NCBI RefSeq assembly: GCF_000331025.1
Contig: NC_020055.1
Location: 2,947,370-3,011,369 of the forward strand
DNA length: 64,000 nt
Origin: Maridesulfovibrio hydrothermalis AM13 = DSM 14728
GTDB taxonomy: Bacteria > Desulfobacterota > Desulfovibrionia > Desulfovibrionales > Desulfovibrionaceae
Direction of reading: 5' to 3'
Positions 11,705-18,319 of the stretch are shown in pieces (position 1 is the first letter of the stretch; the number at the start of each line of letters is the position of its first letter). Below the pieces are notes generated by a model, which was not told the DNA's origin, did not search any database, and saw only the letters and a program-made list of their open reading frames with translations. The translations under genes and the position numbers were made by a program.

Positions 11705-11804
11705 ATGCTTTTGCTAACACCGCCGGCAATATTACAGATGTAGCCTTTATTTATGCAAAGCACACTTTGCTAAAAAGATATTATCACAAATAAAAGCCAC
11801 TGAA

Positions 11805-11939
11805 ATGCAAAAGGACCGGGTTGGAGGTACCCGGTCCTTTTAGCATTTTAAGGAGTGATGATGAGGAATGAAGACTGTATATATATTCGGGTGTTTGTCT
11901 GATTAAGTTGCAGGGGAACAACTTCTCTCGCCCGTGTTG
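11805..11939 (-). ncRNA. Candidate sigma-54-dependent small RNA
   Basis: A transcript of about 135 nt is proposed from near 11939 down to 11805. It is bounded by a near-consensus sigma-54 promoter and an intrinsic terminator. No convincing reading frame lies between. Hairpin 1 is at 11905-11924 (6-bp stem, minus-strand loop TTCCCCTG). A probably single-stranded stretch follows and contains CTCCTTA (complement of 11849-11855). The terminator loop carries CCTCC (complement of 11822-11828). All three C-rich segments are complementary to Shine-Dalgarno sequences, as in several known regulatory RNAs that block translation starts. Promoter, terminator and motifs are seen; transcription and function are inferred. 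It resembles no small RNA family I know. Confidence 0.6.
11806..11845. terminator. Bidirectional intrinsic terminator
   Basis: A 13-bp perfect stem (11809-11821 with 11829-11841) and a seven-base loop, with A/T runs at the outside of both arms, can end transcription from either side. On the plus strand it would end the DMT exporter transcript about 100 bases after the stop codon. On the minus strand it would end the proposed sigma-54-driven small RNA. On the minus strand the loop reads ACCTCCA, complementary to a Shine-Dalgarno sequence. Confidence 0.88.
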
Positions 11940-11949
11940 ATTTCTATAT

Positions 11950-11967
11950 AGCACCAAGTGTGCCAAA
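11950..11967 (-). promoter_or_regulatory. Sigma-54 promoter of the candidate small RNA
   Basis: Read on the minus strand the site is TTGGCACACTTGGTGCTAT. The -24 element TTGGCAC is perfect and the -12 element is GTGCT (consensus TTGCT). The GG and GC dinucleotides are separated by exactly 10 bases, as required. The predicted transcription start is near 11939. Sigma-54 promoters need an enhancer-binding ATPase; palindromes suitable for one lie upstream at 12010-12056. Confidence 0.75.
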
Positions 11968-12009
11968 CTTTTTACCCTTAAATTTCAGCATATTATATTT
12001 TTAAGCAGA

Positions 12010-12023
12010 TTTTGTGCACAAAA
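12010..12023. promoter_or_regulatory. Palindrome 1, candidate activator/operator site
   Basis: TTTTGTGCACAAAA is a perfect 14-bp palindrome. Its centre lies about 78 bases upstream of the predicted small RNA start and about 240 bases before the ribbon-helix-helix gene. It shares the TGCACA core with palindrome 2 and with three single copies nearby (12027-12032, 12064-12069, 12073-12078). Confidence 0.6.
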
Positions 12024-12026
12024 ACC

Positions 12027-12078
12027 TGCACATATATTTTGCACATATGTGCAAAATACAATCTGCACAAACTGCACA
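12027..12078 (+). repeat. Cluster of TGCACA repeats
   Basis: Three further TGCACA units occur at 12027-12032, 12064-12069 and 12073-12078 around palindrome 2. The last two are direct repeats 9 bases apart. Together with the palindromes they give at least six half-sites in under 70 bases, which is far above expectation and points to a cooperative protein-binding array. Confidence 0.6.
12037..12056. promoter_or_regulatory. Palindrome 2, candidate enhancer-binding-protein site
   Basis: TTTTGCACATATGTGCAAAA is a perfect 20-bp palindrome centred about 108 bases upstream of the predicted small RNA start, a typical distance for a sigma-54 upstream activator site. The half-site TTGCA/TGCAA is the one recognised by LuxO in Vibrio, but the spacing here is 6 bases rather than 3. 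The protein that binds it is not known; the adjacent ribbon-helix-helix protein is an alternative candidate. Confidence 0.65.
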
Positions 12079-12147: not shown

Positions 12148-12176
12148 TGTACATAAGTAATCAAACGTATTATATT
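12148..12176 (+). promoter_or_regulatory. Candidate sigma-70 promoter of the ribbon-helix-helix gene
   Basis: TGTACA at 12148-12153, a 17-base spacer and TATATT at 12171-12176 form a plausible promoter. The predicted start is about 75 bases before the ATG. It is divergent from the small RNA promoter, with the TGCACA array between them. Confidence 0.4.
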
Positions 12177-12251: not shown

Positions 12252-12263
12252 GTGCATATGCAC
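12252..12263. promoter_or_regulatory. Palindrome over the ribbon-helix-helix start codon
   Basis: GTGCATATGCAC is a perfect 12-bp palindrome covering the spacer and start codon. It shares the TGCA core with the upstream array. Protein bound here would block initiation, suggesting feedback by the encoded protein; this is inference. Confidence 0.45.
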
Positions 12264-12485
12264 AAACGCCTCTCAGATGTTTACTTAAACCCTGAAATAA
12301 ATGAAAAAATAGATGTAGCATGTCTCAACTTGGGTGTGAGCAAAAGCATGTTTCTAAACGTCCTTTTGCAGGAACTGTTCAACAAAGCCGGGCCGGAAGA
12401 CTTATTTTATAACAGAGTGAAACTGTGCGATACAGAAAGCAAAATTAAAGCGGCCATCAAAAAAGTAGAAAAAATCGCTCACTAA
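12258..12485 (+). CDS. Small ribbon-helix-helix-like protein
   Basis: Predicted 75-residue protein. Residues 3-40 fit a ribbon-helix-helix fold: a short strand (RLSDVYL), helix A (NPEINEKIDVACLNLG) and helix B beginning VSKSMFLNVLLQELF. Such proteins bind palindromic operators as dimers, often as antitoxins or metal regulators; no toxin gene is adjacent. ATG at 12258 is chosen because GGAG lies 5 bases before it. The start codon itself lies within the palindrome GTGCATATGCAC (12252-12263), which resembles the TGCACA sites upstream, so self-repression is plausible. A weak hairpin with a T-run follows at 12625. Fold assignment is by eye. Confidence 0.65.
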   Translation: MHKRLSDVYLNPEINEKIDVACLNLGVSKSMFLNVLLQELFNKAGPEDLFYNRVKLCDTESKIKAAIKKVEKIAH

Positions 12486-12797: not shown

Positions 12798-13775
12798 ATG
12801 AAAATTTTATGCTTAAGTGCCATGCTGTTGGCATTTTCAACTTTGATTGCGGTCCCTTCTTTTGCTGCTGAAAAACTCAGCGGAGATGTAATTATGCTTC
12901 ATGCCGGAAGCCTGTCCGTGCCTCTGGCCAAGATGGTAAAAGAGTTCGAAGCCATGCACCCCGACGTGAATATCAAAAGAACCGCCGGTGGTTCTACTAA
13001 AATGGCCCGCATGATCTCTGAACAAGGTAAACCCGCTGATATCATGGCTTCTGCCGATTATGTGGTCATCGACAAAAATCTGATCCCCAAATATGCAGAC
13101 TTCAACATTCGTTTTGCAACTAACCAGCTTGTGCTCTGCTACACAGACAAAAGTAAATTTGCTGCCGAAATAAATACCGACAACTGGTACGAAATAATCC
13201 AGAATAAAGGTGTAGTATGGGGTCACTCTGATCCGAACCTTGACCCATGCGGTTACCGCAGTGTTATGGTTCTACAGCTTGCTGAAAAATTTTACGGTAA
13301 AGCCGGCCTTTTTGATAAACTCGTTTCCATACGGAAAGATGAATGGATTCGTCCCAAAGCAGTGCAACTTGTTGCGGACCTCAAATCGGGCAATATGGAC
13401 TACGCTTTTGAATACCTTTCAGTAGCTGTGCAACATGGCCTCAAGTATGTACCTCTCAACAAGCATATCAATCTTTCTGACTATAAATACAACAACTTCT
13501 ACAAGCAGGCCAAGGTTGCCGTAACCGGAAAAAAACCGGGAACAACCATTGACCGGATAGGTAAATCAATAACCTATGGGATAACTCAGCTTAAAGACGC
13601 ACCCAATAAACCAGCTGCCACTGCATTTATGGCTTACATGCTCTCCCCTGAAGGCGGCCTGAAAATTCTTAAAGAAATGGGGCAGCCTCCCTTTATTCCT
13701 GCAATTGTTCCTGACGAAGCAATGTTCAAAAATATGCCTAAGCAGTTACAGAAACTGATCAAAGTAAAAAAATAA
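12798..13775 (+). CDS. wtpA: Tungstate/molybdate-binding ABC transporter protein, WtpA type
   Basis: Predicted 325-residue periplasmic oxyanion-binding protein with a signal peptide cleaved after SFA (residue 23). The segments [13 protein letters not shown] near residue 34 and [11 protein letters not shown] near residue 150 are typical of the WtpA family, which binds tungstate and molybdate with high affinity by octahedral coordination. Sulfate reducers need tungsten or molybdenum for formate dehydrogenases and aldehyde oxidoreductases. No permease or ATPase gene is adjacent, so it is an orphan binding protein here. It has its own promoter candidate and a perfect terminator. Confidence 0.88.
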
Positions 13776-17335: not shown

Positions 17336-18319
17336 TTATTTCTGCGCAGCAATTCGCTTAAGAGTTTTAACTATTTTAATCAAAGTCCGTTTCACAATTC
17401 CCATTGAAGCTTCAAGACTGGCAACTCTATTCTGCAACCCCTCAACATATTCTCCCAGATCCTCGCTGTCATAACGCTCCGTTGACTCAGGAGCAGTTAA
17501 AAGCCCCTCCTCAATGCGTTCCCGGGCAAATCCCTCGACAAGCTCCGCTGTAACGGGCTTAATATCATCCGCAAAACCGTAAATAAGGGAACCCTCGCAA
17601 AGGACGTTGATATTACGGGGGATACCGTACGAATATTCAGTTATTTTTTTAACCGCACTGTCAGGTATAATTGTTTGTGGATCTTCCGCCCCGCCTTGGC
17701 GCAGACGGTAATAAACGTATTCTACAACCTCCTGCTCACGGAGACGGGAAAGATGCGCACTGACCACAATACGCTGTACAATCTGACTGTACTTGGCCTT
17801 TCTCAGGCGAGCGCGAAAACCGGACTGCCCAACCATCAGGATTGAAATCAGATTATCCTTACCGGCCTGAAGATTGGAAATCATACGAACCTGTTCAAGT
17901 GCTCCATCGCTCAGATTCTGGGCTTCATCCAGAATAAGCATAACTTTTTTCTCACCCTTGGTGTAAGTCTCCAGTAAAAAGCTCTGCAATGTATCAAGAC
18001 ATGATGCCGGAGTAGGCTTTTCAGGCAACTCTACTTCAAGTTCGGTAAGAATCATTTCTACAATATGATCACCGTCGACCCCGCTGTTAAAAATAACCCC
18101 GACAAGAGTATCTTCACACCTGTCAATGACCAGCTTGTAAATGATTGAAGTTTTACCTGTCCCGGCATCACCTGTAAGCAAAATAAGGCTGTCCCCGTTC
18201 ATCAAGCCGTATTCGATATGAGTGATCGCCTGCTGATGCCACTGACTTAAATAAAAAAAGTCGGGATCAGGCAGAATGTTGAAGGGCTTTTCTTTTAGTC
18301 CGTAAAATTCCAGATACAT
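17336..18319 (-). CDS. ExeA/XrtA-type secretion ATPase
   Basis: Predicted 327-residue AAA ATPase of the exosortase-associated type (similar to ExeA/GspA and to TIGR03015). Walker A is GDAGTGKTS near residue 50, Walker B is MLILDEAQNLSDGALEQ near residue 130, and an arginine finger region follows. The N-terminus YLEFYGLKEKPFNILPDPDFFY is characteristic. A short coiled coil lies at the C-terminus. The ATP-driven action is unknown but it occurs consistently in exosortase/EPS loci. Start at 18319 (MYLEFYG) is preferred; AGGCGG lies 8 bases upstream. Confidence 0.85.
   Translation of the reverse strand: MYLEFYGLKEKPFNILPDPDFFYLSQWHQQAITHIEYGLMNGDSLILLTGDAGTGKTSIIYKLVIDRCEDTLVGVIFNSGVDGDHIVEMILTELEVELPEKPTPASCLDTLQSFLLETYTKGEKKVMLILDEAQNLSDGALEQVRMISNLQAGKDNLISILMVGQSGFRARLRKAKYSQIVQRIVVSAHLSRLREQEVVEYVYYRLRQGGAEDPQTIIPDSAVKKITEYSYGIPRNINVLCEGSLIYGFADDIKPVTAELVEGFARERIEEGLLTAPESTERYDSEDLGEYVEGLQNRVASLEASMGIVKRTLIKIVKTLKRIAAQK

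Follow-up and report, generated by a model that had tools for sequence, protein, structure and literature searches.

A putative sigma-54-dependent small RNA with anti-Shine-Dalgarno segments, apparently restricted to one genus and divergent from a CopG-like gene in Maridesulfovibrio hydrothermalis

The window, by which we mean the whole stretch of 64,000 nucleotides analysed here (contig NC_020055.1 of M. hydrothermalis AM13, positions 2,947,370 to 3,011,369), contains a gap between two plus-strand genes whose minus strand appears to encode a small RNA. An earlier note, made from the letters alone, had placed here a sigma-54-type promoter, a terminator hairpin, three C-rich segments and two perfect palindromes, and all of these elements are found at the minus-strand and window positions given for them. 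The locus is made up of the following features:

11805..11939, minus strand: predicted small RNA gene of about 135 nt, with the predicted +1 at 11939 and the 3' end near 11805
11949-11967, minus strand: putative sigma-54 promoter TTTGGCACACTTGGTGCTA (TGGCAC-N6-TGC; -24 element TGGCAC, -12 element TGC), read from the sequence
11905..11924, minus strand: 5' hairpin with a C-rich apical loop (UCCCCU, 11912-11917), in the MFE folds of 16 of the 17 sequences
11911-11918, minus strand: C-rich segment TTCCCCTG in the loop of the 5' hairpin
11849-11855, minus strand: C-rich segment CTCCTTA, single-stranded
11822-11828, minus strand: C-rich segment ACCTCCA, carrying CCUCC, in the loop of the 3' hairpin
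11847..11880, minus strand: near-invariant single-stranded core (identity 0.89; unpaired in folds), which includes CACUCCUUA
11806..11846, minus strand: terminator-like 3' hairpin with an invariant CCUCC loop, from fold and alignment
12013..12078, no strand: array of TGTGCA/TGCACA half-sites, seven in this genome, 52-140 bp upstream of the -24 element
12035..12058, no strand: central perfect palindrome of 24 nt (identity 0.92 for 12039-12054)
12010..12023, no strand: second perfect palindrome TTTTGTGCACAAAA, read from the sequence
12258..12485, plus strand: gene for a 75-aa CopG-like (ribbon-helix-helix, RHH) protein, divergent from the RNA, with an alternative GTG start at 12252
12798-13775, plus strand: gene for a wtpA-type tungstate-binding protein (NF003196, E 4.2e-129), following the RHH-type gene

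On the minus strand the promoter carries GG at 11964/11963 and GC at 11952/11951, with N10 in between. These two dinucleotides placed ten bases apart are the hallmark spacing of sigma-54 promoters, and from their positions the +1 is expected near 11939. The predicted RNA folds with -37.6 kcal/mol (z -5.2), which none of 200 shuffles equalled. Within the core, CACUCCUUA is the complement of a Shine-Dalgarno (SD) plus start-codon region, and the consensus of the core across the genus reads AUAYAGUCUUCAUUCCUCAUCAUCACUCCUUAA. The U-tract that follows the 3' hairpin is short and interrupted (UUUUGCAUUU), and the hairpin is absent from the terminators listed by the pattern scanner. The impression that this strand holds no credible reading frame is borne out in the relatives: the longest minus-strand frame (60 aa) has no conserved counterpart there, the starts and lengths of the longest frames on the RNA strand vary from genome to genome, and on neither strand is there a frame of conserved length across the genus genomes.

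A 321-base query was matched in all 17 genomes of the genus, and in each of them a TGGCAC[AG]C box lies 133-139 bp ahead of CTCCA.CCCGG. The promoter columns GG, CAC and TGC are invariant (17/17), as is the CCUCC of the 3' hairpin loop (17/17), while 19 of the 34 core columns do not vary. Mean pairwise identity is highest for the -24/-12 promoter (0.89), the core (0.89) and the central palindrome (0.92), and intermediate for the 3' hairpin (0.72), the whole array (0.65) and the 10-base linker (0.62). Less conserved are the 5' hairpin region (0.50), the part from -12 to +1 (0.49), the spacer between promoter and array (0.47), the DNA beyond the array (0.45) and the downstream stretch at 11780-11804 (0.31). 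Such conserved functional blocks separated by diverged spacers match what is predicted for a working promoter-RNA unit. The earlier note had named a lack of conservation of the promoter and C-rich loops in sister species as a result that would speak against a small RNA; promoter, core and C-rich loops are instead kept in 17/17 genomes (the 5' loop in 16/17 folds). Because these parts are conserved and the structure covaries, the proposal stands as far as sequence decides.

The predicted structure was examined for covariation on a 17-row alignment (16 distinct rows), from which the structure itself was derived, so that the figures favour it: the 15 predicted pairs are formed in 98.3% of cells, and 32 cells are changed on both sides against a shuffle mean of 10.4 (0/500 shuffles reach 32). 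Sliding the partners by 1-3 columns, in six registers, lowers pairing to 29-59%. Seven pairs show change on both sides, a number reached by 22 of 500 shuffles, while the number of further pair types does not rise above the shuffles (477/500 reach it). The 3' hairpin alone accounts for 11 pairs, with 100% of cells paired and four pairs changed on both sides. One of its pairs, 111-130, is U.G in 3 of the 16 distinct rows, where the opposite strand would give C.A, which makes the minus strand the likelier of the two to be the RNA strand. At the 5' end, the C-rich apical loop appears in the MFE folds of 16/17 sequences (the exception is G013), although in G001 it is as wide as 25 nt. The core remains mostly unpaired in individual folds, with a mean unpaired probability of 0.61-0.96 over 26 nt.

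The same letters may be read in two other ways. The core could represent, on the plus strand, the SD and the start of a short leader peptide (MMRNED...), with the minus-strand RNA being incidental. The plus strand of 11847-11880 does contain AAGGAG-N2-ATGATG, followed in most genomes by MMRNED or a similar string and by about ten similar codons. However, the peptides range from 8 to 41 residues and diverge after these codons, and hence we do not take the plus-strand frame as a gene; the start is moreover lost in G011, and a single ATG is left in G014. The identity of only 0.31 at 11780-11804, which precedes the hairpin on the plus-strand side, indicates that no conserved plus-strand promoter lies there, whereas the sigma-54 promoter directed towards the minus strand is conserved in 17/17 genomes and the U.G pairs fit the minus strand. 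We therefore consider a leader peptide highly improbable. Slightly less probable still, in our view, is that the sigma-54-like string arose by chance and that the hairpin is nothing more than a terminator shared with the plus-strand gene upstream. The hairpin does follow the 3' end of a plus-strand gene, it is near-symmetric, and its minus-strand U-tract is weak, but the plus-strand neighbour varies (an EamA-type gene in 12/17) while the promoter-RNA unit is constant, with promoter, array, core and CCUCC loop conserved as a set. A real small RNA, dependent on sigma-54 and read from the minus strand, is in our estimate strongly favoured.

The TGTGCA array lies at the usual distance of enhancer sites from the -24 element. 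Each genome has between four and eight half-sites, overlapping ones counted, which begin 52 and end 140 bp ahead of the -24 box at the extremes, and the array core TTGCACNNNNGTGCA is present in 16 of the 17 genomes, being missing in G001. The central 16-mer has one exact place in its own genome (G000); the 20 other places found all carry three mismatches, and none is within two. At the place of the second palindrome, overlapping TGTGCA/TGCACA half-sites are seen in only 6/17 genomes (G000, G002, G003, G005, G007 and G008). It is plausible that the palindromes are sites of an enhancer-binding protein. The own genome yields 21 PF00158 matches, 18 of which are strong AAA+ activator matches, the nearest strong one being about 128 kb away. 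In the 500 bp preceding each of these 18 genes no TGTGCA cluster was found; the only sites there are single ones, at -56 (L040) and -388 (L054). Sigma-54-like strings, TGGCACGTGTTTTGCT and TGGCACACAGAATGCT, were observed behind two activator genes (L055 and L053; G000:C2:756423-759923 and 1354645-1358145), an arrangement resembling that of the non-coding RNAs of D. vulgaris.

All 17 genus genomes carry the CopG-like gene in divergent orientation to the RNA, and no match to it was obtained in the 328 other genomes of the order that were searched. The other neighbours vary within the flanks examined, with the EamA-type gene seen in 12/17 genomes and wtpA in 11/17. CopG is the best PDB sequence match of the divergent protein, although a weak one (E 0.47), and the N-terminal 39 residues align with CopG residues 1-38. 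The structural matches listed for the predicted model are mainly RHH chains, and the model is without the N-terminal strand of the CopG fold. Unlike CopG-type repressors, the protein possesses a conserved C-terminal extension (PEDLFYNRV...) that is found in one genus only. The RHH-type gene of G002 (L108, G002:C3:327733-327957) is interrupted by an internal TAA, whereas the frame of its near twin in G003 is uninterrupted. In G000, about 40 bases of a 5,328-bp second contig (L096, 208-253) match 668 plasmid records at >=95%, mostly from Escherichia.

The CopG-like neighbour gives rise to the most serious alternative. The RNA may be real and sigma-54 dependent, and yet the TGTGCA array may be the operator of the CopG-like protein, which would repress or gate the RNA, with the AAA+ activator working from another site or from solution and with regulator and RNA forming a module. 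CopG recognises TGCA elements, and CopG is the best PDB sequence match; the RHH-type gene is divergent in 17/17 genomes and has no match in the 328 further genomes searched in the order, while other neighbours vary; and the genome has a single copy of the central palindrome, as would be expected for a local regulator. However, the co-occurrence of RNA and RHH gene is confounded with descent, since both are confined to one genus, and the similarity to CopG is weak (E 0.47), with the model lacking the N-terminal strand of the fold. The position of the array also speaks against this reading: 52-140 bp upstream of the -24 element is the usual enhancer place, and the array is about 105-170 bp from the start implied by a sigma-70-like match before the RHH gene (12148-12176), although such matches are no commoner there than in shuffles (3 versus 2.7). 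We regard the operator reading as possible but distinctly the less likely one.

Beyond the genus, little was recovered. No Rfam family reached its gathering threshold in the whole 64-kb window, and the 181 bases around the RNA gave 13 matches up to E 10, none of them Qrr and all far below gathering; the highest score, 23.5 bits against a threshold of 60, came from a partial match to a Bacillus sRNA model. Our model of the RNA, R1, places the genus members at E <= 4.2e-21 (17 in the order set and 16 in the family set) and gives matches at E <= 0.01 in 25/348 order genomes and 19/199 family genomes, in searches whose strict filters may miss diverged relatives. Within the genus R1 recovered 17/17 genomes, while nothing convincing emerged in the rest of the 348 order genomes. 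Eight R1 matches outside the genus (E 2.4e-5 to 0.0075) are without the core and the TGTGCA array and are read as unrelated terminators; seven of them lack the TGG-N9-TGC string, and the remaining one, L079, has this string together with CCTCC, which we judged to be chance. In a collection of 84,980 genomes, which may leave out records close to the window, the core pattern gave five string matches, two in Desulfovibrio MAGs and three in unrelated genera. Among the papers listed in a literature search none treats this RNA; the supplements of PMC4641369 and PMC3333781 may list the locus. We take the locus to represent, with good support, a new family of small RNAs that depend on sigma-54, confined to this genus and of a kind already known.

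The earlier note had described the locus as Qrr-like in promoter architecture, and the likeness holds for the architecture only, as no Qrr row appeared in Rfam up to E 10 and no Hfq was matched; that the RNA does not resemble Qrr in sequence, as the same note held, agrees with this absence of Qrr matches even at E 10. The hosts of Qrr belong to a different phylum, and the LuxO site is TTGCA-N3-TGCAA. The half-site of the array resembles it, but the arrangement here is TTGCA-N6-TGCAA, with a spacing of 6 instead of 3, and we do not regard it as a LuxO-type site. The Hfq profile PF17209 had no match at E <= 0.001 in the own genome, which may still encode a divergent Hfq; the same search matches 5/14 control genomes. 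Small RNAs that work without Hfq are known. The anti-SD RNAs AbcR, NmsR/RcoF, LhrC, RsaE and the terminator loop of RepG likewise expose several C-rich segments, one of them in a 3' hairpin loop, but differ from the present RNA, which would be under sigma-54 control and has no Rfam model at gathering. Qrr of the Vibrionaceae (LuxO/SypG) shares the sigma-54 promoter, the upstream activator-type sites and the single RNA with a 3' hairpin (in part from PMC10162802).

Within the order, sigma-54-dependent RNAs have been described before. The sigma-54 regulome of D. vulgaris includes four non-coding RNAs, under DVU0653, DVU0679, DVU1419 and DVU2359, in a comparison that takes in D. salexigens (Kazakov 2015, PMC4641369), and the target of DVU0679 is Dv_sRNA2, given as of unknown function in Rajeev 2011 (PMC3333781). 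The suggestion that a sigma-54 small RNA in a sulfate reducer would be new is hence wrong, since these RNAs were already known from D. vulgaris. The RNAs of D. vulgaris Hildenborough belong to the same order and are likewise non-coding RNAs behind a conserved sigma-54 promoter, for which the paper gives the consensus tGGcacg/tTGCt. Three of the four are beside or near an activator gene as judged by locus-tag number, whereas here no activator is found that close (none within 128 kb) and the divergent gene is a CopG-like one; this comparison is one of published descriptions, and R1 has no convincing match outside the genus. RNA-seq of D. hydrothermalis (SRP039611) is quoted in PMC4162548, which in its available text counts reads in coding sequences and does not contain the terms small RNA, sRNA, non-coding or intergenic. 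The available part of a paper on ncRNA prediction in O. alaskensis (PMC11124144) makes no mention of RpoN or Qrr.

Candidate targets were sought with the complement of the core, AAGGAGTGATGATGAGG (17-mer), at up to two mismatches in the 17 genomes. The RNA gene accounts for 14 of the 27 places obtained. Of the 13 others, six are AAGGAGCGATGATGAGA at the start of fdhA, all from one clade. The 160-aa N-terminal fragment of FdhA matches best the formate dehydrogenase-N alpha subunit (TIGR01553, E 1.9e-44; the score of the fragment is below the full-length cut-off). In the own genome, fdhA has an in-frame TGA, which we read as selenocysteine, and appears to be followed by genes for an iron-sulfur subunit and then a multihaem cytochrome c. 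Orthologs are present in 16/17 genomes, G001 having only a 42% paralog, and all 16 retain AGGAGCGAT(G/A)ATGA in the start region. Two unrelated types of fdhA leader (L141-L156) occur in the genus, with the last ~20 bases, including SD and start, common to both.

Duplexes were calculated for the core only, as full-length duplexes gave unrealistically long pairings. With the core of each genome, the dG for fdhA is -14.6 to -27.8 (mean -22.5) and the z against shuffled cores is -2.2 to -5.6 (mean -4.2) in the 16 orthologs, which are not independent of one another. Formate dehydrogenase paralogs were rejected as targets, their mean z being -0.3 (11/14 loci, with L158, L164 and L169 left out) against -4.2 for the orthologs. 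Among 306 control start regions, taken from the window and 18 own-genome stretches, own-genome fdhA ranks third by dG (4/306, itself included, are at or below its value) and fourth by z, meaning that, within one genome, about 1% of genes score equally well. Moreover, 8/16 genomes reach only -14.6 to -21.5 for fdhA, while 24/306 control genes reach -20.4 or lower. In four genomes (G002, G003, G004 and G011) fdhA would pair better with the G000 core than it does with the core of the same genome (-30.0 versus -25.1; -34.8 versus -23.2 and -23.7), so that the core changes there did not preserve pairing and give no sign of co-evolution with fdhA. The RNA is kept in G001, which has no close fdhA ortholog, and 22 fdhA starts outside the genus, with approximate starts and the G000 core, average -14.6, two of them at -22 or lower. 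That fdhA is a real target seems to us a tentative proposition, with the odds against it, and we treat it as a lead and not as a result.

Other start regions were also considered. The lowest z of the 306 against the core (-4.5) belongs to a gene start, AGGAGCGATGATGA, near 17852 on the plus strand (L189), a second candidate target whose product is, judged by eye, perhaps an ACT-domain protein. Neither adjoining gene shows conserved pairing as a cis target: averaged over 17 genomes the dG of the RHH gene is -10.1, and over 11 genomes that of wtpA is -11.2, with -22.2 reached by wtpA in G013 alone. A second core segment, GATGAGGAATGAAGACT, was used as a seed at up to two mismatches in the 17 genomes. 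Of its 34 places the RNA gene holds 16; of the other 18, 14 were read and four are without a locus. These places are mostly inside open frames, with a codon run MKNEDF common to five genomes of one clade; one lies directly ahead of a start codon, in G007 alone, and the 14 places read contain no shared start-site target.

Taken as a whole, the locus is best explained by a trans-acting, sigma-54-dependent regulatory RNA with anti-Shine-Dalgarno segments, to which we assign a probability of roughly 0.65. An AAA+ activator, as the promoter class suggests, would switch on RNA polymerase-sigma-54 at 11949-11966, and the resulting RNA of about 135 nt would end at the 3' hairpin and display three pyrimidine- and C-rich anti-SD segments. 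In target mRNAs, the near-invariant core would pair with the SD and the start codon and so lower translation; action by pairing at translation start sites appears probable. The best current lead among the putative targets is fdhA, the alpha-subunit gene of a formate dehydrogenase operon, and other targets are likely. The TGTGCA array may serve as the switch region, where the activator, the divergent CopG-like protein, or the two in competition would bind. A more specific version, in which the CopG-like protein and the sigma-54 activator compete on the array and an Hfq-independent RNA uses its core and two C-rich loops to silence the fdhA-fdhB-cytochrome c operon, is speculative and in its entirety improbable. 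If true, this genus-specific switch would link formate metabolism to a signal, possibly the supply of tungsten or molybdenum, as suggested by the presence of wtpA beside the locus in 11/17 genomes. The RNA itself would be a further case of base pairing in a genome where the Hfq search (PF17209, E <= 0.001) found nothing. The two papers on sigma-54 non-coding RNAs in sulfate reducers (PMC4641369 and PMC3333781) name no target in their available parts. In the present family a core is defined over 17 aligned genomes, fdhA offers a candidate target in formate metabolism, and a conserved regulator gene adjoins the locus, which would make the function of such RNAs directly testable.
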